Shown here piece by piece: positions 22,403-44,667 of a stretch of DNA of 64,000 nt (positions are counted from its first letter, which is position 1; each line of letters starts with the position of its first letter). The stretch lies in the NCBI GenBank assembly GCA_947382625.1, contig CANDAG010000005.1, positions 62,001-126,000 of the forward strand, written 5' to 3'. A program made the translations under genes and the position numbers. Under the pieces are notes generated by a model that worked only from the letters and a program-made list of their open reading frames with translations, was not told where the DNA came from and made no database searches. Source of the stretch: an uncultured Lachnospiraceae bacterium. Lineage in GTDB: Bacteria > Bacillota > Clostridia > Lachnospirales > Lachnospiraceae.

Positions 22403-22561
22403 AATCTGCGGTAACTGTTCAGCCAGGACTTTGCACTTGCTGCAAAGTCCGTGAAAAAGTATGGATTAAGCCAAGAGTGAATCTGCCCCTTCGCCGCAGG
22501 CGACTTTAAATGGGCAGATTCAGCAACTATGAAGCCGTAGGCTGAATAGTTACAATCTGCG
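22403..22561. mobile_element. MITE copy 1 (143 bp, IS66-like ends) with 8-bp target duplication
   Basis: The element proper spans 22411-22553. It starts GTAACTGTTCAGCC and ends GGCTGAATAGTTAC, giving 14-bp inverted ends with one mismatch. It is flanked by AATCTGCG on both sides (22403-22410 and 22554-22561), a perfect target duplication. Inside are a 10-bp hairpin (GGACTTTGCA/TGCAAAGTCC), a second hairpin (GAATCTGCCC/GGGCAGATTC) enclosing TCGCC-GCA-GGCGA, and a third at the right end (AGCC-GTA-GGCT). It encodes no protein. Copy 2 is at 44517-44659, also 143 bp. It lies between the divergent PBP and tldD genes. Confidence 0.9.
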
Positions 22562-22711
22562 AACAGATCTTTCGGTTGAATATAGTCTTTTTATAGAATA
22601 TAATAAAAAGGTACTACCCTAAAATCAGCGAAACACGAAATTGTCAGTCTAAAATAACAGTTCAGCCCACCGCTTCACTGTTATAAAACTATGGATCAGG
22701 AGAAAAGGAGT
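22562..22711 (+). other. Leader between the MITE and tldD
   Basis: This AT-rich stretch holds TATAGAATATAATAAAAA near 22595, with possible -10 boxes such as TATAAT for tldD. The last 20 bp carry AGGAG and AAAGGAG. No other gene is seen. Confidence 0.4.
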
Positions 22712-24049
22712 ATGTATCAATTTCCAAAAGGATTTTACACAGACGTAAGAGAAGAAACGGTGAGCGCTACTTCCATCACCATTGAAAACGGCACCCTGAA
22801 AGAGAATAAGACCAAAAAAGAACAGGGCGTCATTATCCGGCTTTATGACGGCAGACGCTGGTATATCAGCTCTACCACGGAGCTCGCCAAAGTGCAGGAC
22901 GAGATCGATTCTCTTGCACGGATGGCTATTCCCTGCCCGGACATCGAAAACAACCCTATTGTCCAAAAATATGAAGTGAACAAAGAGACCTTGCTCAGAT
23001 ACACTGACTGTGATGTAAGCAGTATATCCAATCTGCAGAAGCTGGCGATGGCTGAGGGCTACTGCAATTGTCTGAAGGCCCATCCCGAGCTCCAGCAGTG
23101 GAAGCTTTATTACGTGGACAATCACACCAGGAAGCATATCGTCTCCAGCAAGGGCTGCGATGTGACCTTTGATACCCAGAATTGCTGTGTGGCACCCCGT
23201 TATATACTGATGAAAGATGACAAGCCCTTTTACGGCCGAAAAGACATTTACCAGATGAAGTTCGAGGAGCTCTCCGGCCACGAGAAGGAGCTTCACGATC
23301 AGATCAAAGAAGATATTTATTATCATGAGAATGCCGTGCCCGCAGAGCCCGGGGAATACACCTGCATCTTTTCACCGGCAGTGACCGGTGTGTTCGCCCA
23401 TGAAAGCTTCGGGCACAAGAGTGAATCGGATTTTATGGTGGGCGATGAAAATATGAAACGGGAATGGGCCATCGGCACCAGAGTAGGCGCCGGGCTCCTT
23501 AATATCATAGACACCGGCATGGAAGAAGGCTCCGGCTATGTCCCCTTTGACGATGAAGGCACCAGAGCCAAAAAGACCTATCTGATCAGGGACGGTATTT
23601 TGTCCGGCCGTCTGCACAGCGCCATGACAGCTGCTGCTTTAGAAGAAAGCTTAACCGGAAATGCCCGGGCCATCAATTTCCAGTTTGAACCCATTGTGCG
23701 GATGACAGCCACCTATGTAGCGGCAGGCGACAGCACGAAGGAGGAGCTTATCGCCGGCGTAAAAGAAGGAATCTACATTGACGATTACAATCACGGCTCC
23801 GGCATGAGCACCTTCACCATTGCTCCTAACAAGGCCTATATGATCCGGGACGGCCGCCTGGCAGAGCCTGTCAGGATCTCTGTCATCACCGGCAATGTAA
23901 TGCATACCCTTCATGAGATTGACGGCGTTTCCAAAGAATTCGAGCTCTGCTCCTTTGCCCTTGGCGGCTGCGGCAAAATGGAACAATTCCCTCTGCGGGT
24001 AGGCATGGGCGGGCCTTATATACGGGTAAATCATCTTACAGTACAATAA
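22712..24049 (+). CDS. tldD: TldD-family zinc metallopeptidase
   Basis: The start at 22712 is chosen because AGGAG lies 8-9 nt upstream; an ATG at 22691 lacks an RBS. The 445-residue product carries the TldD zinc motif HESFGH (about residue 233), then DEGT and GNARAINFQ. The conserved end with NVMHTL and GGCGK-type residues follows. TldD pairs with TldE/PmbA to form a protease that degrades unfolded peptides and matures some microcins or modified peptides. The partner gene follows 18 bp later. No peptide precursor is recognisable nearby. Confidence 0.92.
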   Translation: MYQFPKGFYTDVREETVSATSITIENGTLKENKTKKEQGVIIRLYDGRRWYISSTTELAKVQDEIDSLARMAIPCPDIENNPIVQKYEVNKETLLRYTDCDVSSISNLQKLAMAEGYCNCLKAHPELQQWKLYYVDNHTRKHIVSSKGCDVTFDTQNCCVAPRYILMKDDKPFYGRKDIYQMKFEELSGHEKELHDQIKEDIYYHENAVPAEPGEYTCIFSPAVTGVFAHESFGHKSESDFMVGDENMKREWAIGTRVGAGLLNIIDTGMEEGSGYVPFDDEGTRAKKTYLIRDGILSGRLHSAMTAAALEESLTGNARAINFQFEPIVRMTATYVAAGDSTKEELIAGVKEGIYIDDYNHGSGMSTFTIAPNKAYMIRDGRLAEPVRISVITGNVMHTLHEIDGVSKEFELCSFALGGCGKMEQFPLRVGMGGPYIRVNHLTVQ

Positions 24050-24067
24050 AAGGTTGGAGAAATAGTC

Positions 24068-25306
24068 ATGGTAAAAGAAAAATATAGTCTGAAAAATCGT
24101 GAAATAAATCTTAGTATCATTGGCGGAGAGATCGATTCCGTCATCAAAAAAAGTATTACGCAAAGTGCCTGCCGGGTTTATGACAAAGGCTGCATCGGCG
24201 TAGCCGGTACCTTAGGCGACGGGGATGAAGGATTAATGGCACAGGCACTGGAAAATTTAAATCTGAAGATTCCCTATGAGGCAGAGCCTACCACAGGAAA
24301 GGTGCGCCGGGAAGATTTTACAGGTCAGGAGTCTGATGAGGAAGCCTTCCATAAGGAGGATGGCAACAGCTTTTTGGAGGAGGCTGAGGAACTACTGAGC
24401 ATCCTGAAAAAGGAGTACCCTCAATTGCTCTTCAGCAATAAGACCCGATTATCCGAAATCTCCAGCCAGTTAAGCAACGATGCAGGCACAGACCTCTATT
24501 TCCGTGACCGCCTTATAAGCTGGGAGCTTTTGGTAAAGCATAGGGAATCTGCTAACGTCTTTGATGATATCCTGACTTATGTGGCCCGCAGGCCGGAGAG
24601 GGAAGCATTTTTGCAGGAGGCCAGAGAACATTTGGACGCATTTTTAACCCCTGTTCCTCTTCCAAAAGAAGATCATCTTCCCATCATTGTAGCTCCCAGA
24701 GAGCTTGGCGGATTTCTGGTACAGAATCTGGATGCCTTAGCTTTTGGACACGGCACCTCCTTTTTTAATGGAAAACTAGGGCAAAAGCTGTTCGGCGACA
24801 ACTTCTCTCTCTATGTGGACAGAACCTCCAGGGCTCCTGGAACTCCCTTTTTTGATGTGGAAGGAAGCACCTGCACAGACGATCGATGCTACTTGATCCA
24901 AAACGGCATACTTCTCAGGCCCTTTGCAGACAAAAAACTGGCAAAAGAATTCGGATACGAAAACACGGCAACTGCCAGCGGCTCCTATGACAGCGTCCCC
25001 TCCAATACCGACACCTGTTTTTCTATCGCATCTTCCGATAAGACTCTGAAAGAACTGATCGGTGAGAAAGAGGCGATCTATGTTACTGTTATGAGCGGCG
25101 GCGACTTTACCAGCGAAGGAAATTTCGCTTCCCCTGTGCAGACCGCCTTCCTTTACCGGAAGGGCCGCCTTGTGGGAAAACTGCCGGAATTCAACATTTC
25201 CGGAAATATTTACGATATTTTTGGCAAGGACTTTGTCGGCGTATCCGCAGACAGAGCCTATGAAGGGGAGTTTAAGCTGGTCACAAATATGAAGCTCCAG
25301 CGTTGA
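24068..25306 (+). CDS. TldE/PmbA-family partner of TldD
   Basis: The 412-residue protein belongs to the TldD/PmbA superfamily but lacks the HExxxH zinc motif, as TldE subunits do; the equivalent stretch reads GHGTSFFNGKLGQK. The C-terminal part has GGDFTSEGNFASPVQTAF and the tail NISGNIYDIF. It should form the non-catalytic half of a heterodimeric protease with the preceding gene. TTGGAG precedes the ATG. A strong terminator follows at 25334. Confidence 0.88.
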   Translation: MVKEKYSLKNREINLSIIGGEIDSVIKKSITQSACRVYDKGCIGVAGTLGDGDEGLMAQALENLNLKIPYEAEPTTGKVRREDFTGQESDEEAFHKEDGNSFLEEAEELLSILKKEYPQLLFSNKTRLSEISSQLSNDAGTDLYFRDRLISWELLVKHRESANVFDDILTYVARRPEREAFLQEAREHLDAFLTPVPLPKEDHLPIIVAPRELGGFLVQNLDALAFGHGTSFFNGKLGQKLFGDNFSLYVDRTSRAPGTPFFDVEGSTCTDDRCYLIQNGILLRPFADKKLAKEFGYENTATASGSYDSVPSNTDTCFSIASSDKTLKELIGEKEAIYVTVMSGGDFTSEGNFASPVQTAFLYRKGRLVGKLPEFNISGNIYDIFGKDFVGVSADRAYEGEFKLVTNMKLQR

Positions 25307-25333
25307 TCATCGGCAGCGAAAGTCATAAACATG

Positions 25334-25377
25334 AAGCCTGCAGCAATTTTTGTTTTCGGAACTGCTGCAGGCTTTTT
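25334..25377 (+). terminator. Terminator after tldE, probably bidirectional
   Basis: AAGCCTGCAGCA and TGCTGCAGGCTT form a 12-bp stem around a 17-nt loop, followed by TTTTT. It lies between convergent tldE (+) and uxaB (-). Confidence 0.88.
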
Positions 25378-25405
25378 ATGCCTTCTCTCTAAAATGGTTG
25401 ATCTC

Positions 25406-26926
25406 CTACTGCTTCGGATGGATTTTTTCCAGACATTTTCGCATCACCTCATAAGCCCCTTCCTTCTCCATCAGATCAAGATCCTCTGTGACCTCCCTTA
25501 AAAGCCCGGGGATCTCTGTCAGATCCTCTCCCCAGAATTCTCCATTGGAAAGCACAGCCCCGGCCAGAGCTTCCTTATCATCCTCTTTATGGGAAAGGAA
25601 AAACTCCAGAACCCTCTGTTCATCCCGGACAGGATATTCCTCCTCGCCTCTTTTTCCCACCAGTATTCCCTCTTCCATACGAGAGCCCTCATAAAAAGCA
25701 ATATAAAAAGCCAGGGAAGCGGCAATGCATTTCGGGAGTTCTCTGAATTTCTCCACATACCCCTTCAGGGAGGGCAACACCCTTGCCCGCCATTTGGATG
25801 TGGAATTTAAAGAGATGGCAAGCAGCTCATGATCGATAAAGGGATTGTCAAAGCGGTCTGCTACCGCCCCGGCAAAGTCCTTAAGCTCCTGTCCGGGCAG
25901 GGATAAGGTGGGTATGATCTCCTCATAAACCGTCTGCTCCATAAAGCCCCGGATCACCTGATCCTTCATACAATCCCGAACAATATTTTTTCCTGCCAGA
26001 TAAGCCCCCAGCACCATAGAGGTATGAGCCCCGTTTAAGATCCGTACCTTACGCTGCTTATAGGGTCTGTGGTCATCTGTGAGAAGCACCGGAAGCCCTG
26101 CCGCTTCAAAAGAGAGCTCCTTTTTCAGACAATCCGGTCCTTCGATCACCCAGTAACCAAACACCTCCCCGGTATCCAGGGCCTGATCCTCATATCCCAG
26201 CTCCCGGCAGACCTTTTCCGCTTCTTCTTCCGGATATCCGGTTACGATACGGTCAACCAGAGTGGAGCAGAAAATATTCTCTGTTCCGATCCATCCCATA
26301 AAAGCTGCCTCAAGATTCCAGTAGGCGGCATACGCAAGCACCGTGCGCTCTAATTCCTTCCCGTTGTCCTCGATCAATTCACAGGGAAGGATCACAAGTC
26401 CCCCCTTTTCCCTGCCAAAGGTCTTATACCTCTCATACAAAAACTGAGTCAGCTTTGCCGGAAAGCTGGCCGCAGGCTTATCCTCCAGAGAGCAGGACGG
26501 ATCAAACTTAATACCGGCCTCCGTGGTATTGCTGATAATAAAACGGAGCTCCGGATTTCTGGCACACGCCATATACTCTTCATAGTCGCTGATGGGATTT
26601 AAGCATCGGCTGATGCAGGAGATCACCCGCCTCTCATCCACCCGCTCCCCTTTCTCATTGCCTCGCAGAAGCAAGGTATAAAGTCCCTCCTGCTCATTTA
26701 TCGCATCCTTTACCCTGCCGCTGCCTGTTCCCCTTGGCTGGACCACCACTACCTTGGAACAAAAATCCGTTTTTTCATTCATCCGGTCAATCAGATCATC
26801 TGCAAAGGCCCGCAAAAATACCCCTTCTCCGAATTGAAGCACCCGCTCCGTCCCTTCCTTCAACAAATAACCTTCGTAATTTAATTCCTTTAATGTTTCA
26901 TAAGATAATCTTCTCATTTTCACCAT
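25406..26926 (-). CDS. uxaB: Tagaturonate reductase (altronate oxidoreductase)
   Basis: This protein of about 506 residues is a mannitol-dehydrogenase-superfamily oxidoreductase of the UxaB type. It reduces D-tagaturonate to D-altronate in galacturonate breakdown. Visible signatures are the N-terminal LQFGEGVFLRAF nucleotide region, IISNTTEAGI, the LVDRIVTG segment, and KVRILNGAHTS with the catalytic Lys. The start at 26926 is supported by AAGGA 5 nt upstream; an ATG at 26944 overlaps the araC stop codon. It is translationally close-coupled to that AraC gene. The GH4 gene beyond is likely the source of galacturonate. Confidence 0.88.
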   Translation of the reverse strand: MVKMRRLSYETLKELNYEGYLLKEGTERVLQFGEGVFLRAFADDLIDRMNEKTDFCSKVVVVQPRGTGSGRVKDAINEQEGLYTLLLRGNEKGERVDERRVISCISRCLNPISDYEEYMACARNPELRFIISNTTEAGIKFDPSCSLEDKPAASFPAKLTQFLYERYKTFGREKGGLVILPCELIEDNGKELERTVLAYAAYWNLEAAFMGWIGTENIFCSTLVDRIVTGYPEEEAEKVCRELGYEDQALDTGEVFGYWVIEGPDCLKKELSFEAAGLPVLLTDDHRPYKQRKVRILNGAHTSMVLGAYLAGKNIVRDCMKDQVIRGFMEQTVYEEIIPTLSLPGQELKDFAGAVADRFDNPFIDHELLAISLNSTSKWRARVLPSLKGYVEKFRELPKCIAASLAFYIAFYEGSRMEEGILVGKRGEEEYPVRDEQRVLEFFLSHKEDDKEALAGAVLSNGEFWGEDLTEIPGLLREVTEDLDLMEKEGAYEVMRKCLEKIHPKQ

Positions 26927-26936
26927 ACCCATCCTT

Positions 26937-27761
26937 TCATCCATAAGACTGCCTGCAGCTTTTCAGCATCTGAAAAGGTGTCACCCCTTGGATCCGCTGA
27001 AAAACAAAAGAAAAATAATTGCTGTCATTGTAACCGCAGCTTCTGGCTACCTCCGACACAGATACGCCGCCTTTTCGAAGCAGCTTTTCCGCATTGGAGA
27101 TCCGCACATAAGTGATATAACGGTTCATACCAATCCCGGTGACGGCCTTGAACTTCCGGGATAAATAGCTTTCACTGATGGAAAACCTTTTACTGATCTC
27201 CTGCAGGGAAATATCCTGACTGTAATTTTCTCCAATATAGGCCGTAATTTCATAAATGATCTGGTCCGACTCCAGAACCTTGTTCTTCCTCTCGCACCGG
27301 TAACGGCATAATTGAACCAAGAGCTCTAAAATATAGCTGTGTATCAAAATATCCTGATAGGGCTCCTTTTGTCTATACTCCTTTTCTATTTTTAAAAAAA
27401 GGGCTTCCAGTTCCCCCCGCCGCTCCTTCGGCACACAGATCACAGGCGTTTTGCACAGCTCCTGATACAAAGGCTCTGCCTCCCGGTCAAAAACGGAATC
27501 GGGAAAATTCAGCAATATCCTGGCGTTGTTTCTGCACTCCCCGCTGTCCGTCCTGTGCAGAACCCCTCTGGCAACAAAGACAAAATTCCCCTTTTCCACA
27601 CTGAAGATCTCGTCGTCTATAAAATAAGTCGTCCTGCCCTCCTGCATATAATACAGCTCGTGCTCTTCATGGTAATGCACCTCGCAGCGCTTTCGTCTAT
27701 TCACAGACTTGTCCCTGGAGATCAGAAAATCCGAAACCCTTTTTACTTCCTCCTCCGCCAT
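26937..27761 (-). CDS. AraC-family transcriptional regulator with cupin sensor
   Basis: The start at 27761 has AGGAG 7 nt upstream; a TTG/ATG 7 codons earlier is weaker. The 274-residue product has an N-terminal cupin-type sugar-sensing domain (HYHEEHELYYMQEG, residues about 30-45). A C-terminal double helix-turn-helix follows (about 175-274) with ISLQEISKRFSISESYLSRKF and VSEVARSCGYNDSNYFSFVFQ in segments. It lies directly before uxaB and diverges from the GH4 gene, so it probably controls galacturonate use. This role is inferred from context. Confidence 0.9.
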   Translation of the reverse strand: MAEEEVKRVSDFLISRDKSVNRRKRCEVHYHEEHELYYMQEGRTTYFIDDEIFSVEKGNFVFVARGVLHRTDSGECRNNARILLNFPDSVFDREAEPLYQELCKTPVICVPKERRGELEALFLKIEKEYRQKEPYQDILIHSYILELLVQLCRYRCERKNKVLESDQIIYEITAYIGENYSQDISLQEISKRFSISESYLSRKFKAVTGIGMNRYITYVRISNAEKLLRKGGVSVSEVARSCGYNDSNYFSFVFQRIQGVTPFQMLKSCRQSYG

Positions 27762-27898
27762 AACGTCTCTCCTGCTTTCCAAACCATATTCTTATGATTT
27801 ACTGTATCACGGGAAGGTATATAAGTCAATTTTTTCATATTTTTAATCTTAAACGGCAAATTAATCAAGGATTTCTTGAAATTTTTGATGCATAATAT

Positions 27899-27970
27899 CA
27901 AACAACAGCTCGCTCCGCGAACTGTCTTATTGATCAAACAACAGCCCGCTCCGCGAACTGCCTTATTGAT
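27899..27970 (+). repeat. Tandem pair of 36-bp REP-like hairpin units
   Basis: Two 36-bp copies (27899-27934 and 27935-27970) differ at two positions. Each has the core CGC-TCC-GCG hairpin. In the first, ACAG (unit bases 7-10) pairs with CTGT (24-27). Each ends CTTATTGAT. They lie between the divergent araC and GH4 genes, 41 bp before the GH4 start codon. Confidence 0.88.
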
Positions 27971-28011
27971 CGAAAAGGAAACGAAAATTTCTCAGAAAAG
28001 GGGATAAGAAA

Positions 28012-29412
28012 ATGAACTGTCAAAATAACTCCGTATCTTCTATCAAGATCGCCTACATCGGCGGCGGCTCCCGTGGCTGGGCCTGGGGGCTGATGAGCGA
28101 CCTGGCAGCCTGTGATGATATCAGCGGTGAAGTTGCCCTCTACGATATTGATCTTCAGGCCGCCAGGGATAATGAGGTCATCGGAAATCTGTTCCGTACC
28201 GCCGAGGGCGTCCGGTCCCACTGGCATTACAGGGCTGTCCCGACTCTTTCGGAAGCCCTCACCGGCGCGGATTTTGTGGTGATCTCCATCCTTCCCGGCA
28301 CCTTTGACGAAATGGAATCCGATGTGCATACTCCAGAAAAATATGGCATCTATCAGTCCGTAGGGGACACCTCCGGTCCCGGCGGCATTTTGCGTGCCAT
28401 GCGCGCCCTTCCTATGTTTGAGGAGATCGGCGAGGCTGTTAAAGCCCATTGCCCCGATGCCTGGGTGATCAATTACACCAATCCCATGACCCTGTGCGTG
28501 AAGACTCTCTACCGGGTTTTCCCTAAGATCAAGGCCTTCGGTTGCTGCCATGAGGTATTTGGCACCCAGAAATTCCTAGCCCGCATGGTGGAAGAAACCT
28601 TCGGCGTAAACGATGTTGACCGCCATGAGATCAAAGTCAATCCCATAGGCGTCAACCACTTTACCTGGCTTACAAGCGCCTTCTGGCAGTCTGTCGATCT
28701 GTTTCCTTATTACCGGGAATTTTGCCAAAAATACCGGGACGGCTACCGCACCGGTGATAAGCAGGTGGATTCCAACTGGATGAATGACAGCTTTTCCAGC
28801 ACAGAAAAGGTAAAGATGGATCTCTTTCTCCGCTACGGTTATATTGCCGCCGCAGGCGACCGCCATCTGGCAGAATTCTGTCCGGGGAACTGGTATCTGG
28901 AAAGTCCGGAGCGTGTAAGGGAAATGCAGTTTGGTCTGACCAGCGTTGCCTGGCGGAAAGATGACCTGGAAAAGCGCCTTGCCAGAAGCAGACGATTAAG
29001 ATCCGGAGAAGAAAAGGTCAAAATAAACGGTACCGGAGAGGAAGGTGTGAACCAGATCCGTGCCCTTTTAGGCCTTTGCGACCTGATCACCAACGTCAAT
29101 CTTCCCAATCAGGGACAGATCCCCAATCTCCCTCTGGGCGCTGTTGTGGAGACCAACGCCGTCTTCCGATCCGGAAGCCTGACTCCCGTTATGGCCGGTC
29201 CTGTCCCCTCTGCCATTTATCCTCTGATCGCCAGGGTTTGCGGGGAACAGGAAATGATCTCGGAGGGAATTGCCCGGAGGGATACAGAGCAGATCTTTGC
29301 AGCCTTTGCCGGCGACCCTCTGGTAACCTGCAGCCTTACCGATGCCCGCAAACTTTTTGATGAAATGTGTGAAAATACGAAGAAATATCTTTCGATGTAT
29401 GATCTTGGATAG
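28012..29412 (+). CDS. Glycoside hydrolase family 4 enzyme, probable alpha-galacturonidase
   Basis: This 466-residue GH4 enzyme should use NAD+ and a divalent metal. It has a Rossmann start IAYIGGGSRGWAWG, ADFVVISILPG, the family NYTNPMTL, and metal ligands in CCHEVFGTQ (Cys, His) and GVNHFTW (His). The SRGWAW and CHEVFG patterns are closer to LplD-type alpha-galacturonidases than to 6-phospho-alpha-glucosidases. The adjacent uxaB gene supports a galacturonate substrate. It acts in the cytoplasm. AAAGGGG precedes the ATG. No phosphotransferase genes are nearby, consistent with an unphosphorylated substrate. Confidence 0.85.
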   Translation: MNCQNNSVSSIKIAYIGGGSRGWAWGLMSDLAACDDISGEVALYDIDLQAARDNEVIGNLFRTAEGVRSHWHYRAVPTLSEALTGADFVVISILPGTFDEMESDVHTPEKYGIYQSVGDTSGPGGILRAMRALPMFEEIGEAVKAHCPDAWVINYTNPMTLCVKTLYRVFPKIKAFGCCHEVFGTQKFLARMVEETFGVNDVDRHEIKVNPIGVNHFTWLTSAFWQSVDLFPYYREFCQKYRDGYRTGDKQVDSNWMNDSFSSTEKVKMDLFLRYGYIAAAGDRHLAEFCPGNWYLESPERVREMQFGLTSVAWRKDDLEKRLARSRRLRSGEEKVKINGTGEEGVNQIRALLGLCDLITNVNLPNQGQIPNLPLGAVVETNAVFRSGSLTPVMAGPVPSAIYPLIARVCGEQEMISEGIARRDTEQIFAAFAGDPLVTCSLTDARKLFDEMCENTKKYLSMYDLG

Positions 29413-29576
29413 GCCTATTCACACTTTATTCAAATTTATTTAACATAATTTAATTTCATTTACATTCTTTGGACATTTCTGTGTCCTATACTAACATTAC
29501 AAGGTACACAAAAGCCTGCTTTTAAACTGAATTGATTATCTCGAAGACTAACTTATTAAAAACTTTTTCATAACAA

Positions 29577-29617
29577 ATGCCAGATAAACTAAAGTTTATC
29601 TGGCATCCTCCTTTTTA
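29577..29617. terminator. Strong hairpin terminator between convergent genes
   Basis: ATGCCAGATAAACT and AGTTTATCTGGCAT make a perfect 14-bp stem with a 2-3-nt loop, then CCTCCTTTTT on the plus strand. It ends the GH4 transcript and probably also the minus-strand isomerase transcript. Confidence 0.9.
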
Positions 29618-29649
29618 GGGCATTGTGCCCTGCACCGCTTTCTGTTGAA

Positions 29650-30423
29650 TTAATGTTCCCATAATGCAACCCCCATTTCCTTAAGAAACGTCAGACTCTC
29701 TGCCATACACTCAAAGGCATCCTTCTCCCAGCGCTCCTGTTCCGCAAATATCCATTTTACCCCTGTTTCCCTTAGGGCCCGGATTACCGGCTTCCAGTCG
29801 ATCACTCCTTGTCCCACCGGAACCAGTTGTTCTACGCCCCCGGCACTGATGCAATAGTCTTTAAAGTGAACAAACTCAATCCTTCCCTGATACCGGTGAA
29901 GCCACTCCTCAGGATCTAAACCTGCTTTGATCAGATGGTACAGATCCAGCCCCAGCTGCAGGGAATCCGGCGTATGCTCCATCAGTATTTCCACGGCGGT
30001 TTTGCCGCCGAAACAGCAATACTCCTGCACCCGTGGATGAAAGGATACTACCCTGTTCAGGGCTGCCATCCGGCCTGCAAAGCCGGTAAGCTCTCCGGCA
30101 AAAGCCATACAGCCCTCCTCCGAAAGGAACTGCCGTGGAATACCGCTAACGCAGATATTTCTGCTGCCACACAGATCGTGGAGCCGCAGTACAGAAGGCA
30201 GGCTGTCCATCACCTCCTGATAGTAATCCTGAGTAGAGACGCTTATAAGCCCGCTGCGCTGTAAAGCGCGGGCCACCGTTTCCGGCGGGATCTGCGGGCT
30301 TATCCACTGCAGCTGGACGATCCGGCAACCCATATTCCGAAGCTTTTCAAAGGTTTCCTCCATTTGCTCCGGGCTCTGGAGATAGTCTTTCAGACTGGAA
30401 ACCTGTATCCCTGCTATCGCCAT
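29650..30423 (-). CDS. Sugar phosphate isomerase/epimerase family protein (xylose isomerase-like TIM barrel)
   Basis: The 257-residue product matches the AP-endonuclease-2-type TIM barrel of sugar isomerases. It contains VSFHPRVQE, a LGLDLYHLIKAG metal-binding strand, FVHFKDY with the usual His-x-Lys-Asp, PVGQGVIDW, and FAEQERW at the end. Relatives include inosose isomerases and ketose epimerases; the substrate is unknown. The RBS GGGGGAA precedes the ATG. It stands alone, convergent to GH4. Confidence 0.85.
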   Translation of the reverse strand: MAIAGIQVSSLKDYLQSPEQMEETFEKLRNMGCRIVQLQWISPQIPPETVARALQRSGLISVSTQDYYQEVMDSLPSVLRLHDLCGSRNICVSGIPRQFLSEEGCMAFAGELTGFAGRMAALNRVVSFHPRVQEYCCFGGKTAVEILMEHTPDSLQLGLDLYHLIKAGLDPEEWLHRYQGRIEFVHFKDYCISAGGVEQLVPVGQGVIDWKPVIRALRETGVKWIFAEQERWEKDAFECMAESLTFLKEMGVALWEH

Positions 30424-31826: not shown

Positions 31827-32002
31827 CGCTTATTATGGATAAATACAGGAAATCCAGTCTTCACGGAAGGTAGAATATAATGCCATTGTACCGTCTATAC
31901 AGAACTCTCTCTTTCATCTCCTGCCTGCGCCTGCCGGTTGCGCAAAAATACAGCCGGCTTTCTTGCATGCAACCGCAAACACTGATAATCTCTAAGTCAA
32001 CA

Positions 32003-32100: not shown

Positions 32101-32121
32101 AGAAAGAGAGGAACAAATTTT

Positions 32122-33378: not shown

Positions 33379-33395
33379 GCAGCTTTCCTGCCTCT

Positions 33396-36897: not shown

Positions 36898-37014
36898 ATT
36901 CACACCATTTCCTTTCCGCAATCTGCTTTACGCTCATAATGCTTGTTATTTTTTATTTTACAGGAAAGGGCTGTTTTTGCCTATACCCCTTTTTAAACAA
37001 TAAATGGGTTGATA

Positions 37015-37044
37015 TTGACATAATAAAGACAAATCAGATATAAT
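37015..37044 (+). promoter_or_regulatory. Sigma-A promoter of the AraC gene
   Basis: TTGACA (37015-37020) and TATAAT (37039-37044) are both exact consensus hexamers with an 18-bp spacer, 67 bp before the AraC start codon. Confidence 0.85.
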
Positions 37045-37111
37045 TTAAAAAATAAATATGTGTGATTTTAATCTGAGAACATTTATGACAGGAAGGAGGG
37101 AAAGGAGAGAT

Positions 37112-37957
37112 ATGAATAATTATTCCCACCAGATCATCAGCGATGATACAAGATTACAGCTTTCTTTTTCGCTGATCAATTCCAATAACGCCAGTTTTCC
37201 TACTCACTGGCACAGTCATCTGGAAATTATGCTGATCCGAAGAGGATATATGACCGCCTTTATCGGTGACCAGAAATTCACCCTGAAAAAGGATGACCTG
37301 CTGGTGATCAATTCCAGAGAGCTGCATTCTACCAAAACCTGGGGGGAAACAGATTATCTGCTTTTACAGATTCCCTTTGACTATCTTTCCAGAGCCATCA
37401 GCGGGATCTCTCTGATCAGATTTCAGGAATACTTCCCTTCTATCACCATGAATACCACCCAAAAAAAGCTCTGCAACTGTCTGTTTGAGCTGACCAGGAT
37501 CTATACGGAAAAGGAGGATGGATATCTGCTCCGTTTCTCCTCCGTTGTGTACGATTTTTTGTATATTTTATACCGTAACTATGCCCATAAACTGAGCAGG
37601 GAAGCAAAGGAAAAGGAGAACCGCAATTTCGAAAGGATTGAAGAGGTACTGCAATATACCAGAAGCAATTATAAACAGGAAATTTCTTTAAATGAGGCTG
37701 CCGATCTGTTAAATATCAGCCCGGAATATTTCTGCCGTCTGTTCAAAAAGCACACCGGTCAAACCTTTTTGGAGTACTTAAACGCCATACGGCTCAGCCA
37801 CTTCTATCAGGATCTGGTCAGTACCGACTACAGTATCACAGATCTCATGGATCGTAACGGTATCAGCAATTATAAAGTGTTTTTGCGCACCTTCAAAGAA
37901 GCTTACGGGGCTTCACCAAGTAAGATCAGAGGAATCGGTCATAAGCCTGGCAGCTGA
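37112..37957 (+). CDS. AraC-family transcriptional regulator
   Basis: The ATG at 37112 follows AAAGGAG by 5 nt; the upstream ATG at 37058 lies close to the promoter without an RBS. The 281-residue product has a cupin sensor domain (HWHSHLEIMLIRRGYM, about residues 30-45). Its C-terminal double HTH (about 180-281) has ISLNEAADLLNISPEYFCRLF and ITDLMDRNGISNYKVFLRTF in segments. It probably senses an oligosaccharide product and controls the divergent GH3 gene. This is inferred from orientation. Confidence 0.9.
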   Translation: MNNYSHQIISDDTRLQLSFSLINSNNASFPTHWHSHLEIMLIRRGYMTAFIGDQKFTLKKDDLLVINSRELHSTKTWGETDYLLLQIPFDYLSRAISGISLIRFQEYFPSITMNTTQKKLCNCLFELTRIYTEKEDGYLLRFSSVVYDFLYILYRNYAHKLSREAKEKENRNFERIEEVLQYTRSNYKQEISLNEAADLLNISPEYFCRLFKKHTGQTFLEYLNAIRLSHFYQDLVSTDYSITDLMDRNGISNYKVFLRTFKEAYGASPSKIRGIGHKPGS

Positions 37958-38000
37958 TTGTCCGGTCTGCTTTATGCCTTCCTGCACCTTCTATCCTCCT

Positions 38001-38912
38001 CTAATCCAGCGACAGCCCTGCAAAGAAATCCTCCTCCATACCCTGATCCGACTGCCGGCGCATGAGATAGGCCTTCATCTCCGGGAAGCTCTCTCCCATC
38101 TCCTGCAAAATCCCATCATAATTATCCCCTGTCAGGCACCCTGCCTCTGTAAATGCCTCATAATAGGCCCGCTCATTCCCATGCTCCTTAAACACTACCT
38201 CCCAGGCTGCCTCCGAAGCGCATCCCTTGGTATGAGCGGCAAGATAATTACCCAGTTCCTCACGGAGCTCTGCAGAAAGCTCCCTGTCATTCATCAGCCG
38301 CAGAAAGCAAAGTCTGGCCTTTTCCCGTTTCCGTTCCTGCAGATAGTACTCCACATTGGCCACAATGTCCTCTTCCCCGCAGTAGACCATTTTCACAAAC
38401 CCATCCTCATCAGGAACGGCAAGAAATTCCTGAAGCTTATCGTCAAACCGTTGCAGCCACTCCCTTTTCCCTGCATCCGCAGGTGCAAAGAGATAGTCAG
38501 CCTCCAGCTTTCCCGGAACAGCTCCCAAAAGCCAGCCGATCTCCTCCTCCGATTGACCATCTGGGTTTAACGGACAGATTTTTGTAAGCTTATGGCAATC
38601 CTTAAAAACGCCCTTTCCCATGGACAGATTCCTTTGGGGAAGGTAAATAGTCTCAAGGCTGCTGCAATAAGCAAAGGCCCAGTCTCCTAATTCTGCAAGT
38701 CCCTCTGGGAGCCATATCTCCTTCAGAGATTTACTGCTTAAAAAGGCCTTTTTGTCAATAACTGTCACTGGAAGACCCTCGATGACGGAAGGAATTATGA
38801 CTCTGCTTAAGATCACCTTGCAGGATTTGATGCAAATCCCGTCTCTCCCGACCTCACAGGTCAACCTTCCTCCCTGCACTTCTATCTCCTTTTCTGCCCT
38901 TATTGCCCACAT
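38001..38912 (-). CDS. Leucine-rich repeat protein (BspA-like) of a MoxR-VWA operon
   Basis: The 303-residue protein has BspA-type leucine-rich repeats in its N-terminal half (about 40-140: VIPSVIEGLPVTVID, LKEIWLPEGLAELG, LETIYLPQ). The C-terminal half (about 160-303) is helical and unrecognised. There is no signal peptide, unlike most BspA proteins, so it should be cytoplasmic. Its ATG lies 1 nt after the stop codon of the MoxR ATPase gene, so the two are translated together. It may be a substrate- or ligand-recognition subunit for that ATPase, an inference. Confidence 0.8.
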   Translation of the reverse strand: MWAIRAEKEIEVQGGRLTCEVGRDGICIKSCKVILSRVIIPSVIEGLPVTVIDKKAFLSSKSLKEIWLPEGLAELGDWAFAYCSSLETIYLPQRNLSMGKGVFKDCHKLTKICPLNPDGQSEEEIGWLLGAVPGKLEADYLFAPADAGKREWLQRFDDKLQEFLAVPDEDGFVKMVYCGEEDIVANVEYYLQERKREKARLCFLRLMNDRELSAELREELGNYLAAHTKGCASEAAWEVVFKEHGNERAYYEAFTEAGCLTGDNYDGILQEMGESFPEMKAYLMRRQSDQGMEEDFFAGLSLD

Positions 38913-38913
38913 C

Positions 38914-40461
38914 CTAATACATCCCCTCCAGATTCAGTGATGCCACCTCTTCCCAAAGGCCGCTGCTTCTCTCTGAAAGCATCAGCTCCTGATTATGTCT
39001 GTGATATGCCTCACACCCAAACTGGGCAATAAATCGGGCACTGTCATTTCTCACTGTCAGCTCTGTCACAAGGATCAGCATTTCATTTCCTTCTGCAAAG
39101 GCATTTTCCACAAAAGCAAACAGATGCTCCAGGCGCTTTTTGGTCCGCTCTACCCGCCTGCGCAGTTCCCCTGTCTGCCCATCAAAGGCGGCCTTTAAGC
39201 AGGAAAACTCCGCGGCAGACTGGGAATGCCCCTTCCCTGCTTCCCCGGTTCCCTCCACCAGGAGGCGTTTTTTCTCTTCCTCCAAAAACTGCAGGATGCG
39301 CCTGCCTTTACGCTGCTCCCGCTCCGAGAGGCTGCCTGCCAGCCGTGCCGACTCTATCTGCTTCTTCCTCCCTTTGATCTGACGCTCCAGCATATCCGGC
39401 ACAGATAGCTGTGTCCCTTTCTCAAGGGCTGCCCTGATTGCCTTCAGATTCTTTAACAGCTCCGTCAAAAAGTCACTGATTTCCATATCCTCGCCAATCT
39501 CGCTTGCCTCTTTATCTATCAGCATACCGAGAAGAGACAGACGCTCGTCAAAAGGCGCGATCCTTGCCCTCTCGACAATCCGCGCTTCGGCAGTCCCGTT
39601 TAGGATTTCCTCTGTCTGGTACTCCTTTTTGTACTTATTGAAAAGGTCATAATAAGCGGTAAATTCCTTCACTACCCTCTCGTTTCGGATATACTGCCCC
39701 ACCAGGGACTCATCCGCCTTCATTCCCTCCTCCTCATAGAGGCTTAATATCTCAGATAAATCCTCCCAGCCTCTTGCAGTCACATAGCTTCTGCCATTTA
39801 CGGTGGTCTCTATTCGATAAAAATCATCCTTTTTCAGCTCCAGAAAATTCAGGATCGCTCCATGAAGCCTTTTTTGCCGGGCGTATTCCTTCCAGGCCTT
39901 ATAGTCTGCCTCCACCTCCAGCACCTTCAGCCGGTCAAGGGTCACCACATCGAATTCCCGTACCGACTTGTTGTACTCCGGCGGATTACCCGCTGTGACG
40001 ATCACCCATCCCTCCGGCACCTTATGCCGTCCGAAAACCTTGTACTGCAAAAACTGAAGCATGGAAGGCGCCAGGGTTTCCGACACACAGTTGATCTCAT
40101 CCAGAAACAGGATTCCCTCCCGGATGCCGCTCTTTTCCATTACTTCATAAATAGAGGCAATGATCTCGCTCATAGTGTACTCCGACACATCATATTCCAT
40201 GCCCTGATACTCCCTGTGAGAAATAAAGGGAAGTCCCAGCGCCGACTGCCTGGTGTGATGGGTCATAGAGTAGGAAACCAGAGCAATCCCCAGTTCCTGG
40301 GCCACCTGTTCCATGATCGCTGTCTTACCGATCCCGGGCGCCCCCAGCAAAAAAATCGGCCGTTGCCGCACCACAGGGATCCGGTACTCCCCAAACTCAT
40401 CCCGTTTCAGATACAGCCGTACCGTATTCTCAATATCATCCTTTGCCTGTTTTATATTCAT
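38914..40461 (-). CDS. MoxR-type AAA+ ATPase
   Basis: This 515-residue protein starts with a MoxR-like AAA+ module. Walker A is GAPGIGKTA (residues 40-48), Walker B is GILFLDEIN (about 116), and sensor 1 is VIVTAGNPPEYN (about 154). A long C-terminal helical part (about 330-515) contains charged coiled-coil stretches. MoxR ATPases work with VWA proteins as chaperones that remodel or metallate targets, as in RavA-ViaA. Here the VWA-like partner gene directly overlaps its start by 26 bp, and an LRR gene follows. AACGAGG precedes the ATG. Confidence 0.9.
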   Translation of the reverse strand: MNIKQAKDDIENTVRLYLKRDEFGEYRIPVVRQRPIFLLGAPGIGKTAIMEQVAQELGIALVSYSMTHHTRQSALGLPFISHREYQGMEYDVSEYTMSEIIASIYEVMEKSGIREGILFLDEINCVSETLAPSMLQFLQYKVFGRHKVPEGWVIVTAGNPPEYNKSVREFDVVTLDRLKVLEVEADYKAWKEYARQKRLHGAILNFLELKKDDFYRIETTVNGRSYVTARGWEDLSEILSLYEEEGMKADESLVGQYIRNERVVKEFTAYYDLFNKYKKEYQTEEILNGTAEARIVERARIAPFDERLSLLGMLIDKEASEIGEDMEISDFLTELLKNLKAIRAALEKGTQLSVPDMLERQIKGRKKQIESARLAGSLSEREQRKGRRILQFLEEEKKRLLVEGTGEAGKGHSQSAAEFSCLKAAFDGQTGELRRRVERTKKRLEHLFAFVENAFAEGNEMLILVTELTVRNDSARFIAQFGCEAYHRHNQELMLSERSSGLWEEVASLNLEGMY

Positions 40462-41737
40462 ATTCCTCGTTCCTTTCCATCAAAACCTTTACTGCCCAAG
40501 GCGGTACCTGGGGTCCCTCGTCCCCGTTATCCGGAAACACAAACATTACCTCATAGGGCGGCATTGCCCCCGGATACACCCCATAGCCATCCGTAAAATA
40601 GAGAAGCCCCTTTAAATTCTCAAACTCCCCTTTCCTTATCAACTCATCCACATAGGCGAACACCGGACGGAAATCTGTAGATCCGAAGCCTGTGAGCTTT
40701 TCATGACTCAGGAAAAAATCCAGATCATCTCTGCTGGTGATCTTCGTATCACGCTGTACCTCGTGATCGCACTGGATGATGTGGACATTCATCTTTCTGA
40801 AAAAGGTCTCCTCCCCACTCAAAATCCCATAAGTTTCCTGCAGAAATGACCGGACCACCTCTCCCCGGCAGGAAGCCGAGGTGTCGATTGCGATCACAAA
40901 CTCCCGCACCTTCCTGCTGTCCCTGTACTCTAATGGCTCCACCAAAGGCATATTCCCATACTGTGAAAGCCCGTAGGTATAATAAATATAATCAAACTCC
41001 TCATCATTTACCTGCATATCTTCGTTCATTACCATAAATTTCCGAAGCAGCTCCTCATAGGAACGCCGGTCCCTGACTGCTTCCAGCAGACTTTTTTCCA
41101 GGCTCTCCGACCTGGACTTTCCGGCGGAAAAAGATTTTAAGTCCGCCTGCACCCTCTCGCTCAGCTTCTTCCACTGCTCAGCCGAAATAGTCAGCTCCTC
41201 CGAAGGCATCCACCGCCTGTGAGAATCCATGAAAAAGAGTCGGGAAAGCTCTGCCTTCTCTCTCCCGCTTACCTGAAAATTCTGCAGATACCGGTAAATC
41301 TTTTCTGCAGTAAGGCTATGTATCTCTTCCTTTATAAAAGCAAGCTTTTTCCTGGCCTCCTCATCCCGCATAAGGGAACTGCCCGTAAGGTCAAGCTCCA
41401 GGATTGCCGCCTCCGCAGCCATATCTGCCGCAAGGTTCCATGCTTCTCCATCCAGCTTGTCGAAACGGAAGCTGTGATAAAAGATCATATGAAATAAAAT
41501 ATGCAGATACATCCGTACCACAAAAGCCGGTTCTTCTTTATACTTCATCAAAAGAAAAACCGGATCATAATAGATTTTCGCGCCATCTGAAGAGACACCT
41601 CCGATCCCCTTTTCCGGCACCGGCTTAAGAGCAGACAACGTCGTATCCAAAAAGCGCATATTGACTAAAATACTGTCCCTGGCAATCCCCAACACCTTTT
41701 GTGCCAGCAAACCAATCTTTTCATCTAACTCGCTCAT
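40436..41737 (-). CDS. DUF2201-type VWA-like protein with metallopeptidase-like N-terminus
   Basis: The 433-residue product has an N-terminal zincin-like part with HILFHMIFYH (HxxxH, about residue 80) and an Asp-rich helix. The C-terminal VWA-like domain (about 285-433) begins FVIAIDTSASCRG, a MIDAS-like DxSxS. It is the expected partner of the MoxR ATPase encoded next. The ATG at 41737 is preferred; a TTG at 41746 overlaps the dCMP deaminase stop codon. The tight overlaps from the dCMP deaminase to the LRR gene indicate one transcript. Confidence 0.87.
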   Translation of the reverse strand: MSELDEKIGLLAQKVLGIARDSILVNMRFLDTTLSALKPVPEKGIGGVSSDGAKIYYDPVFLLMKYKEEPAFVVRMYLHILFHMIFYHSFRFDKLDGEAWNLAADMAAEAAILELDLTGSSLMRDEEARKKLAFIKEEIHSLTAEKIYRYLQNFQVSGREKAELSRLFFMDSHRRWMPSEELTISAEQWKKLSERVQADLKSFSAGKSRSESLEKSLLEAVRDRRSYEELLRKFMVMNEDMQVNDEEFDYIYYTYGLSQYGNMPLVEPLEYRDSRKVREFVIAIDTSASCRGEVVRSFLQETYGILSGEETFFRKMNVHIIQCDHEVQRDTKITSRDDLDFFLSHEKLTGFGSTDFRPVFAYVDELIRKGEFENLKGLLYFTDGYGVYPGAMPPYEVMFVFPDNGDEGPQVPPWAVKVLMERNEEYEYKTGKG

Positions 41738-41742
41738 ATGCT

Positions 41743-42234
41743 TCAATACCCTCTGGTGCCTTCTAAAGATTCGTCATTGTCGATCCAGTCCTGCACCATG
41801 ATCATACGGTATTCGTCCCTGCTGTCCCTGATGTAAACCCGTTCGATCCCCGCATTGATCATGACTCTTTTACACATAGAACAATTATTGGAGTTGGGAA
41901 TATATTCTCCGGTCTGAGCATCCACTCCGGCCATATACATGGCACTGCCGATCATTTTGTCCCTGGAAGCGCTGATGATGGCATTCATCTCCGCATGGAC
42001 GCTGCGGCACAACTCATACCGCTCCCCTCTGGGGATATTCAGCTCCTGCCGGATGCACCTGCCCGTATCGGTACAGTTCTTCCGTCCTCTGGGCGCCCCC
42101 ACATAACCGGTAGAGATCACTTCGTCATTTTTTACGATCACTGCTCCATACCATCTTCTGAAACAGGTACTGCGTTTTGCCACCGTTTCCGCCAGATCCA
42201 GATAATAATTGATCTTATCCCGCCGCTCTGTCAT
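41743..42234 (-). CDS. Deoxycytidylate deaminase (dCMP deaminase/ComEB-like)
   Basis: The 163-residue zinc enzyme converts dCMP to dUMP for dTTP synthesis. The catalytic HAEMNAI and the zinc cysteines in CSMCKR are present, and the TGYVGAPRG and RSVHAE context fits the family. GGAGGGG precedes the ATG. Its 3' end touches the VWA-like gene. The function of this neighbour in a MoxR-VWA operon may be coincidental. Confidence 0.93.
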   Translation of the reverse strand: MTERRDKINYYLDLAETVAKRSTCFRRWYGAVIVKNDEVISTGYVGAPRGRKNCTDTGRCIRQELNIPRGERYELCRSVHAEMNAIISASRDKMIGSAMYMAGVDAQTGEYIPNSNNCSMCKRVMINAGIERVYIRDSRDEYRMIMVQDWIDNDESLEGTRGY

Positions 42235-42312
42235 CTTCTCTTCCCCTCCGATAATAATGAAATAATTATAGCGCTGCCGACCGTAAAAAGGTCTCCTATC
42301 CTTTGCTATGGT

Positions 42313-43272
42313 CTACAACAGCACTGCATATACCATAGCTAGCGACACCACGATCTGAATGATTGCAAAACGTACCACCGTCTGGGTATTGGACCATCCC
42401 ATATTTTTGCGGACATGGTCATGCAGCGGCGTTCTTACATGGTTTAATATATGGATCTTAAATACACGTATCAGTCCTACTTTGACCAGCCCCAAACCTC
42501 CGTCAAATATAAACACCAATGCAACCGGAAGATACATAAAAGGACTCCCGCTCTTAAGCGCCGTAATACTGATAAAAATCCCCATGGCACGACTTCCCGC
42601 ATCGCCCATGATCAGCCGGCTCGGCGTTGCATTATACCAGAGATATCCCAAAATACAGATAATAAAGATCAATATCAGAAAGGTAAAATCGTCCTTCCCC
42701 GTAATATTATCGATCACATAAAAGGTGGCCAGGGTTATGATCGCCAACGTGCCTGAAAGCCCGTCCACCCCGTCGGAACAATTGGTGACATTGATGGATC
42801 CCCACACCAGAGCCACCGTCAAAAGCCCGAATAAAAGCGGCGGGATCGTCAGATTCCTCTCGAAGACCGCAAGTCTTATGGTATTGGAATTAAAATTCAG
42901 ATAGGTCACCGCCACGATCGCCGCAACGGTCAGATCCAGTATTCCTTTCTTTAAGCCTCCCCAGGGCTTTTCTGACGCATCATCCATAAACCCTGTCAGC
43001 ATCTCCGCAACGATCAGGATCAGATAAATGATCATCTCCAGATTGATAGGGGCAAAAATAAGAGCAGCTGCCACAAACACAAAGATAAATATGATCCCTG
43101 CCCCTCTTGGCTTACCGGCAGAAAGCTTCCCCTCCACGGCATACTCTCTTCCTCCGTCTCTGGGCAGCAGAAAGCTTAACTTTGCTGTCAATATGCAGGT
43201 GCCTGCAAACGCAAGCAGCAGTCCGATTGCTGCCGCTAATGGCTGATTTCCTTTTATAAAAAAATGGATCAC
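42313..43272 (-). CDS. MraY-like phospho-N-acetylmuramoyl-pentapeptide transferase
   Basis: This 319-residue polytopic membrane protein (about 10 helices) belongs to the GT4/MraY family. It has MDDASEK in the first catalytic loop, NCSDGVDGLSGT with the conserved Asp pair, GDAGSRAMG, and a C-terminal HDHVRKNMGW that replaces the usual HHH-type motif. It should transfer a sugar phosphate to undecaprenyl phosphate. It lies outside a cell-division cluster, so it could be a paralogue for another polymer. It starts with GTG after GGGAGG, 8 nt away. Confidence 0.85.
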   Translation of the reverse strand: MIHFFIKGNQPLAAAIGLLLAFAGTCILTAKLSFLLPRDGGREYAVEGKLSAGKPRGAGIIFIFVFVAAALIFAPINLEMIIYLILIVAEMLTGFMDDASEKPWGGLKKGILDLTVAAIVAVTYLNFNSNTIRLAVFERNLTIPPLLFGLLTVALVWGSINVTNCSDGVDGLSGTLAIITLATFYVIDNITGKDDFTFLILIFIICILGYLWYNATPSRLIMGDAGSRAMGIFISITALKSGSPFMYLPVALVFIFDGGLGLVKVGLIRVFKIHILNHVRTPLHDHVRKNMGWSNTQTVVRFAIIQIVVSLAMVYAVLL

Positions 43273-43290
43273 TTTATTTACCTCCCTCAG

Positions 43291-43890
43291 TTATCCGATC
43301 CCCAATGCTTCCTTCGCAAGTTGATCCGCCATATCATTGTATTTATCATTGGAATGCCCGGCCACCTTCACAAAACGTACCTTCACCTGGGAACTTACCT
43401 TGTCAAAAAAGGCCTTATAGGCTTTGGTGCCTTCCTTATTGGCTTTCCATTCTCCCAGACACCACCTGGCAATCCCTTCATAATCATGATAAATCTCAAT
43501 CGCCGGGATCCCGTGATCAAGGGCATACTGCATGGCAGCCTCTGCCCCCTTGATCTCTCCCGCCACATTCCGCATGGAGCAGAGCTCTTTATCCTGAAAA
43601 CGGCAATTATAAGTCTCTTCCCCATCCTCCTTCAGCACCACCATACCATAAGAAAACTCTCCTGCAGCATGGTTATAACTTCCATCTACATATATTTTAA
43701 CACAGTCCTGCTCTTTCAAACCATCTTTTCCGGAAAAATTATCCCCCAGATAATCCCGGGCTTCTGCCCTGGTCTTGAAGCTCTTATATACAGCTCCCGG
43801 ATAACCGTGCACATTTTGCCTGCACTCTTCCCACGTAGTAAATATTCCGGTCTTTCTTCCTGCCCTGACTGCATAATACTTTTCTGCCAT
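43291..43890 (-). CDS. Ribonuclease HI with viroplasmin-like N-terminal domain
   Basis: The start at 43890 (MAEKYYAV) has AGGGAG 8 nt upstream. The 199-residue product has the RNA/DNA-hybrid-binding viroplasmin domain (about 1-45: YYAVRAGRKTGIFTTWEEC in part, YKSFKTRAEAR). The RNase H fold follows (about 65-199) with catalytic residues in YVDGSYN, the Glu of GEIKGAE, YHDYEGI and DMADQLA. It removes RNA from hybrids during replication. It is 18 bp upstream of the mraY-like gene on the same strand. Confidence 0.92.
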   Translation of the reverse strand: MAEKYYAVRAGRKTGIFTTWEECRQNVHGYPGAVYKSFKTRAEARDYLGDNFSGKDGLKEQDCVKIYVDGSYNHAAGEFSYGMVVLKEDGEETYNCRFQDKELCSMRNVAGEIKGAEAAMQYALDHGIPAIEIYHDYEGIARWCLGEWKANKEGTKAYKAFFDKVSSQVKVRFVKVAGHSNDKYNDMADQLAKEALGIG

Positions 43891-43970
43891 AAAATATGCT
43901 CCCTGCACTGCCCCCTGCTCCCGTCTCTCTTCACTGTCAGAAAAACAGATTTCTCCGCGATGACTGATGC

Positions 43971-44053
43971 TTTACATCCCGGAGCCTGTGAGGCTATACT
44001 ATACTTGTAAAAGGGGTAAACGGTGATGGCCTTTCGGGGACATCGCCGTTTTG
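43971..44053 (+). ncRNA. Candidate small RNA: promoter followed by a terminator hairpin
   Basis: TTTACA (43971) and TATACT (43995) with an 18-bp spacer form a fair promoter. About 15 nt past the expected start, AAACGG-T-GATG pairs with CATC-G-CCGTTTT (44018-44052). The predicted transcript is only about 45 nt. The T-tail is short, and the element could instead be a stray terminator. Confidence 0.3.
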
Positions 44054-44054
44054 A

Positions 44055-44117
44055 TTCAATAAGCTGACACCCGAAGCGTGCCGGCGTTTGTTCAATAAGC
44101 CGATTTAGCGGCGTTTG
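44055..44117 (-). repeat. Pair of REP-like units, one full and one shortened
   Basis: On the minus strand a 36-bp unit (44055-44090) with core CACGCTTCGG is preceded by a 27-bp unit (44091-44117) that has lost its inner part but keeps GCCG and CGGC. They are in reverse orientation to the other loci. Confidence 0.8.
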
Positions 44118-44202
44118 ATAGTCTCAGGAAATTTTATCATGTACCAGACGTGAAAGCAAATAATTTCTGCCAAATGATGTGAATAACTATTTGAATAGTG
44201 AA

Positions 44203-44412
44203 TTATGCCAGCTTGCAGGGCTTCTCCATCTGCTCTGCCTTCCTTTCCATAAATTCCAGCATTGCGTCAGTATTCCCGTTAAATCCATTGACAACAAACT
44301 GCAATATTTCCTTTTCGCCCCATCCGTTGATCTTTTTGAATCTTTTCGCAAGCCTTTCAAGTCTTTCCTGCTGTCCGTCCTCTAAAATAATGGTCACTTC
44401 ATAGAACTTCAT
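44203..44412 (-). CDS. Small conserved-looking protein of unknown function
   Basis: The start at 44412 (MKFYEVTI) has AAAGGAG 10 nt upstream; the longer frame from 44463 lacks an RBS. The 69-residue product is charged and helical (EDGQQERLERLAKRFKKI, then a helix to the end). It has no membrane segment and I recognise no family. It diverges from the small XRE gene across a MITE, an arrangement often seen for antitoxin-like or regulator pairs, but no function can be given. Confidence 0.6.
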   Translation of the reverse strand: MKFYEVTIILEDGQQERLERLAKRFKKINGWGEKEILQFVVNGFNGNTDAMLEFMERKAEQMEKPCKLA

Positions 44413-44508
44413 TTCGATAATACTCCTTTTATCAGACACTTCCATATACGACACTATAAACATATCACATTGTGGAGTTGTTCACAATATCGATTTCTCA
44501 TCTTTGAG

Positions 44509-44667
44509 TCCATAATGTAACTATTCAGCCAGGACTTTACACTTGCTGCAAAGTCCGTGAGAAAGCCTGGATTAGCCAAGAGTGAATCTGCCCCTTCGCC
44601 GCAGGCGATTTTAAATGGGCAGATTCATGTAACTATGAAGCCGAAGGCTGAATAGTTACTCCATAAT
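44509..44667. mobile_element. MITE copy 2 (143 bp) with 8-bp target duplication
   Basis: The element spans 44517-44659 with ends GTAACTATTCAGCC and GGCTGAATAGTTAC, exact 14-bp inverted repeats. It is flanked by TCCATAAT on both sides (44509-44516 and 44660-44667). It matches copy 1 over its whole length with about a dozen differences and keeps all three internal hairpins. It lies in the divergent promoter region of two small genes, ending 40 bp before the XRE start. Confidence 0.92.

Follow-up and report, generated by a model that had tools for sequence, protein, structure and literature searches.

Miniature elements with IS66-type ends and a conserved three-hairpin core in Lachnospiraceae

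Miniature inverted-repeat transposable elements (MITEs) are usually regarded as deletion remnants whose middle is of no importance. Here we describe two such elements, each 143 bp long and non-coding, in a 64,000-nucleotide stretch of an uncultured Lachnospiraceae bacterium (assembly GCA_947382625.1, contig CANDAG010000005.1, positions 62,001 to 126,000; hereafter the window). Like ERIC, RUP, BOX and REP-type repeats they are intergenic, multi-copy and hairpin-forming, while those repeats have other ends, other duplications and other mobilising enzymes. Membership in the REP/RAYT system, in which a Y1 transposase lies beside the repeats, is thought unlikely because the window elements are flanked by exact 8-bp duplications.

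The closest described complete elements belong to the ISBst12 group of IS66 insertion sequences (IS). The accessible part of its description gives ISDge4 the ends GTGACTACTCAGCA and GTAACTGCTCAGCA, an 8-bp repeat and one open reading frame (ORF) (PMC12898284), and an excerpt of a published table has a single ISBst12-group IS66 element for plasmid pHTA426 (PMC8024623). ISDge4 and the elements of pHTA426 and an Anoxybacillus plasmid share with the window MITE GTAACTATTCAGCC ends or close variants and 8-bp duplications, whereas they are 1.6-1.8 kb long with one transposase gene, against 143 non-coding bp in the window element. QMITE2 of Coxiella, in the portion of its account available, is likewise short and non-coding with terminal repeats, and 7-9-bp repeats and stem-loop transcripts have been described for it (PMC10969869). 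The window group differs from that account in that covariation of its internal fold extends over genera and end types; IS66 and covariation go unmentioned in the same portion of it (PMC10969869). Among the matches listed in the open-access literature we found neither IS66-derived MITEs in these bacteria nor this fold, and what is new here is a large Lachnospiraceae MITE group with a core fold conserved across sequences and end types.

The alignments presented below show a core architecture that has been kept through compensatory changes across relatives with several kinds of ends. It is, in our judgement, an even call whether one three-hairpin fold, set between interchangeable IS66-type ends, has been selected as a folded strand across Lachnospiraceae and is a working part of the transposon. 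If so, the fold would serve, for example, the bridging of ends in a 130-145-bp element or the control of transcripts, and would not be an inverted-repeat by-product. The combination of differing ends with a kept core fold makes the job of a non-coding transposon core directly testable.

The positions and lengths of both elements, as given in the first-pass annotation, were confirmed from the sequence, and so were the perfect target duplications of 8 bp at each of them.

22411..22553, + strand: MITE copy 1, 143 bp (sequence; covariance model score 161.4 bits)
22403..22410, no strand: left target duplication AATCTGCG of copy 1 (exact sequence)
22554..22561, no strand: right target duplication AATCTGCG of copy 1 (exact sequence)
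44517..44659, + strand: MITE copy 2, 143 bp (sequence; covariance model score 150.3 bits)
44509..44516, no strand: left target duplication TCCATAAT of copy 2 (exact sequence; single in two empty sites)
44660..44667, no strand: right target duplication TCCATAAT of copy 2 (exact sequence; single in two empty sites)

The 14-bp inverted ends that had been described for both are perfect in copy 2 (14/14), and in copy 1 they agree at only 13/14 positions (GTAACTGTTCAGCC vs GTAACTATTCAGCC). The two copies are 93% identical, and their equal length is the result of two one-base indels cancelling out. In both, the ends start with GTAA and the duplication is 8 bp, as in the ISBst12 group of the IS66 family. 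Neither copy contains a transposase gene or gives an IS66 domain match, and they are therefore not IS elements themselves.

The source assembly, a 4.18-Mb draft in 113 contigs that is 88% complete, holds 42 matches to the 143-bp unit, 23 of them near full length. Duplications at these 23 are perfect in 15 and match at 7/8 in 5 more (20/23 with at least 7/8), where a match of at least 7/8 between unrelated 8-mers is expected about 4 times per 10,000 by our own calculation with equal base frequencies. The genome contains 54 occurrences of the end 14-mer GTAACTRTTCAGCC and none of its reversed control, and further perfect 8-bp duplications flank long forms of 197 and 196 bp, a 186-bp element and a 42-bp remnant. 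With a crude ORF picker none of 27 source-genome copies lay inside an ORF; a wider count placed 7 of 99 copies (25 from the source genome, 74 named) within ORFs of at least 90 amino acids, six of them in ORFs of 96-148 amino acids and one in an ORF of 312. The elements are thus short and without a transposase gene, with inverted ends and a target duplication, many dispersed copies and empty sites, in agreement with their annotation as a non-coding MITE.

Empty sites were sought with ten joined flanks as query against 37 genomes of the genus, with at most eight candidates scored per genome. The expectation of an empty site with a single 8-mer was borne out for copy 2, where two congeners align with a single TCCATAAT between matching flanks, and not for copy 1, which had no junction-spanning match outside the source genome among the matches listed. 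For another copy (L002) junction-spanning matches exist in many genomes; the seven that were aligned are uninterrupted, but they do not conserve the 8-mer. The description "recently active" holds at the scale of the genus. Identity of full-length copies to those in the window is 84-97%, so not all of them are very young.

The core of each element comprises two internal hairpins and a third at the right end.

22426..22450, + strand: hairpin A of copy 1, 10-bp stem with a 5-nt loop (fold, pair counts)
22478..22522, + strand: hairpin B of copy 1, with an 11-bp stem, a 3'-side bulge of 8 nt and an apical stem with a GNA triloop (fold, pair counts)
22523..22553, + strand: right-end hairpin of copy 1, in which the right end adjoins an inverted internal repeat of the element end (sequence)
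44532..44556, + strand: hairpin A of copy 2, a single A.C mismatch in the stem (fold, model)
44583..44627, + strand: hairpin B of copy 2 (fold, model)
44629..44659, + strand: right-end hairpin of copy 2 (sequence)

Conservation of three internal hairpins had been noted, and the folds are indeed found in both copies, with the reservation that hairpin A, without a mismatch in copy 1, carries one A.C mismatch in copy 2. Folding z-scores range from -5.9 to -8.4 for both copies on both strands, with 0/200 shuffles as stable each time. Pairing among relatives was evaluated on a 27-row MAFFT alignment that is not guided by structure; 13 of its rows come from a pattern scan that fixes hairpin A, which is therefore tested by the other 14 only. 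On this alignment 98.1% of cells pair in hairpin A, 90.5% in hairpin B, 96.8% in the apical stem of B, 79.9% in the right-end hairpin and 96.0% between the two ends, and changes on both sides occur at 3/10, 7/11, 3/5, 2/14 and 2/14 pairs, respectively. Hairpin B with its apical stem, at 10/16 pairs changed on both sides, has a covariation score of 0.227, reached by 0/500 shuffled alignments, against 0.113 when shuffled, and in each of three runs the covariation score exceeded 500/500 shuffles. A second alignment, in which 42 matches at 41 selected loci were fitted to the covariance model, has 94.1% of cells paired, changes on both sides at 38/40 pairs and a covariation score of 0.490, compared with 0.135 when shuffled and at most 0.086 in slid controls.

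The fold is retained together with sequences that do not pair. The GNA triloop of hairpin B is present in 40/42 rows, the bulge of hairpin B and the stretch after hairpin A are also conserved, and the right-end hairpin has GA facing GA in 21/42 rows, is fully paired in 15 and has other arrangements in 6. GNA loops and tandem G.A mismatches are unusually stable in DNA hairpins.

The architecture extends well beyond the source genome. The covariance model, built from 27 chosen elements, has matches in 20 of 37 congeneric genomes (79, 66, 43, 32, 28 and 20 in the six with the most) and none in the remaining 17; in the family it matches 78/397 Lachnospiraceae genomes in 67/334 genera. The pattern scan of the GTDB genome collection returned 101 stretches from 25 assemblies (counted by accession prefix) under the titles Lachnospiraceae bacterium, Eubacterium sp., Parablautia muri, Hominisplanchenecus murintestinalis, Clostridia bacterium and bacterium, two of which names point to the mouse gut. 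The right end was located in 74/101 of these stretches, with perfect duplications in 46 of the 74 and at least 7/8 in 58, a fraction that leans upward, as the duplication was a tie-breaker in the choice of right end. For elements found by the model, whose boundaries were set independently of the duplication, 15/34 of those inspected in the genus and 15/27 of those inspected in the family have a duplication of at least 7/8. The 143-bp unit itself had no match in phage and plasmid collections.

Across these genomes the same architecture occurs between differing ends, such as GTAACTATTCAGCC, GTAACAGTTCAGCC, GTTACTGTTCACAC, GTAACTnTTCAGTAC and GTTATTATTGACGGC, and it is retained even in elements with almost no sequence left in common. 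Genes for IS66-like transposases adjoin several MITE-type ends (GTAACAGTTCAGCC, beside a 65%-identical transposase; GTTACTTTTCACACC; GTTACTTTTCACG; and GTTACTGTTCACAC, the last without a duplication). The link of the other end types to IS66-like transposases is only suggestive, because most IS copies beside them show one end only or no duplication.

Matched arms could also arise from mutation, if replication switches template at palindromes and one arm is thereby copied onto the other, which would mimic covariation. We consider this unlikely as the source of the fold, while noting that the long forms differ mainly by inserted hairpins and that stem mismatches, at 14 G.T (G.U in RNA) to 12 A.C in Watson-Crick register at interior stem positions only, are as expected without strand-specific selection. 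This count replaces a first one of 22 G.U to 13 A.C, which was discarded since its register favoured G.U and stem ends were included; the recount left out eleven loci (decayed, truncated, with another core or badly bounded) as well as the 186-bp element, and it was made over distinct arm pairs, whereas the element totals of the strand test contain duplicates. Template switching could explain the matched arms but not the conserved triloop, bulge and stretch after hairpin A, nor the GA/GA double mismatch retained in half of the 42 rows, which the correction of one arm by the other should erase.

Less likely again is that the element is in essence a structured RNA, a cis-regulator or small RNA useful to the host, with mobility secondary. 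The strong covariation in the model-fitted alignment would suit such a role, as would 31 G.U to 14 A.C on the same alignment and the orientation of elements between co-directional genes, where 29 are sense and 13 antisense (p = 0.02). Against it, the orientation rows are not independent and the source genome shows no bias (6 to 6), the G.U excess shrinks to the 14 to 12 given above under a register that does not favour G.U, and 17/37 congeners lack any match while two have an empty site in place of copy 2. Rfam offers no family either: at the gathering threshold the window gave only a tRNA elsewhere, apart from that there were two weak hits with E near 1, of which one lay outside the element and neither was convincing, and 11 relative loci had no match at E up to 1. 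A structure switch in RNA at the right end had been suggested in the first-pass annotation, and it is possible as a structure and unsupported as a function. A fold with the left end unpaired is less favourable by about 12 kcal/mol in copy 1 and 8 kcal/mol in copy 2, and by more than 1 kcal/mol in 42/42 relatives, so pairing of the ends wins in energy in all of them, a preference that may occur in any element with terminal repeats.

IS66-domain matches are present in 24/60 related genomes, and in a congener one of these loci (L102) is an IS66 element of 1,824 bp with GTAACTATTCAGCCTT at both ends, so that GTAACTATTCAGCC is its terminus on either side, an 8-bp duplication AGGAATTA present twice and one 485-amino-acid transposase ORF with an IS66 DDE domain. 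A second locus (L100) has the ends GTAACTATTCAGCA and GTAACTATTCAGAA with an imperfect duplication, and several further IS66 loci in the sample have GTAAGCGTCAAATAA-type ends; the end match to the congener element is therefore specific. Its transposase matched 68 public plasmid records, all below 60% identity and at 23-29% in the best 10 of 68. Two plasmid IS66 elements, on Geobacillus pHTA426 and an Anoxybacillus plasmid (1,635 and 1,634 bp, L318 and L319), have a single ORF, exact GTAACTATTCAGCC at one end, a variant of 1 or 2 bases at the other and perfect 8-bp duplications; their ends were ranked by repeat plus duplication. The annotation of the window elements as IS66-related is upheld by these three elements, and the GTAACTATTCAGCC end shared with single-ORF IS66 elements, together with 8-bp duplications, leads us to regard the window copies as very probably MITEs with ISBst12-type IS66 ends, a grading given jointly to the whole of our explanation, trans movement and selected fold included. 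By the covariance model the MITE core is absent from two complete IS elements (L113, L122), and at loci of one further genome (G440) the model gives scores of 16 bits where the IS ends (L229, L231) and of 22 bits for a partial element (L231).

A DDE transposase of an ISBst12-type IS, in the present or an earlier host, would bind the ends and move the MITE in trans. The fold would be under selection in the copies that propagate, because a folded single strand, whether DNA during transposition or RNA in transcripts, may help the element to spread or make it tolerable to its host. That the mobilising enzyme comes from another IS family is highly improbable: several families make 8-bp duplications and the source assembly lacks an IS with the same ends, but three IS66 elements, two of which come from Bacilli, carry the end, and other MITE ends also adjoin IS66-like genes (GTAACAGTTCAGCC, and a 22-bp shared end in G004 described below), although no search of other IS families for these ends was made.

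Several results weigh against movement by an IS66 enzyme and selection on the fold. A helper IS with the same ends was not found in the 88%-complete source assembly, so we infer movement in trans from relatives. The sole IS66 match in the source genome (C5:20174-20908), 30% identical to the congener transposase, adjoins a different end, GTTACTTTTCACACCCACGCC, for which no matching left end was found. In the 27-row alignment the number of pairs between the two ends changed on both sides was reached by 491/500 shuffles, and the number of further pair types by 418/500 for hairpin B and 74/500 for hairpins A and C; the 42-row alignment, like any row retrieved by the model, was fitted to the structure. 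Finally, 19/34 genus and 12/27 family elements found by the model have no duplication of at least 7/8, several of which are truncated or have another core.

The IS66-like gene of the source genome was rejected as a partner since its adjoining end does not fit the window copies; that end does share 22 bp with a MITE in G004 whose ends are of a further type. The locus (L056 2830-4608), in which the gene is preceded by a coiled-coil-like ORF and only one end is recognisable, is possibly a multi-gene or decayed IS66 relative.

The 186-bp element (L046 1947-2132) has similar ends, a different core and a perfect 8-bp duplication, AAATGGTG, and is a second MITE type in the source genome, while the 42-bp remnant (L041 3426-3467) consists of both ends within the duplication AGAAAAAG. 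Lone right-end hairpins without the rest of the element occur at six source-genome loci (L032, L036, L039, L042, L051, L054), near-perfect in L032, L039 and L042 and degenerate in some of the others. The extra module of the 197- and 196-bp forms was considered as an independent repeat and set aside, as its tail (at most 2 mismatches) is found in the source genome only within those two copies. The long module of hairpin B recurs with altered sequence in other genomes (L213, L141, L147, L047), and in L213 its tail lies in opposite orientation in the other arm of the hairpin.

Both window copies lie between divergent genes, copy 1 with a penicillin-binding protein and a TldD/PmbA-type protein on either side and copy 2 with a Cro/C1-type regulator and a small ORF that matches nothing in Pfam. 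Beside copy 1, a weak model match on the - strand (22654-22786; 20.6 bits, E 0.0023) includes a decayed right-end hairpin at about 22654-22685 and is probably what is left of an older related element; it lies upstream of the TldD/PmbA-type gene. Near copy 2, two ORFs at 45380-46325 resemble, by eye, a lysin with a peptidoglycan-binding end and a holin-like protein, and these genes look phage-like. Genomes of two different genera (G029 and G356, loci L274 and L298) have one and the same 138-bp element in common, its 8-base flanks included, which would reflect either recent transfer or contamination. Tandem or near-tandem pairs of elements occur at G036:C142:25892-26279 and G001:C64:21929-22202.

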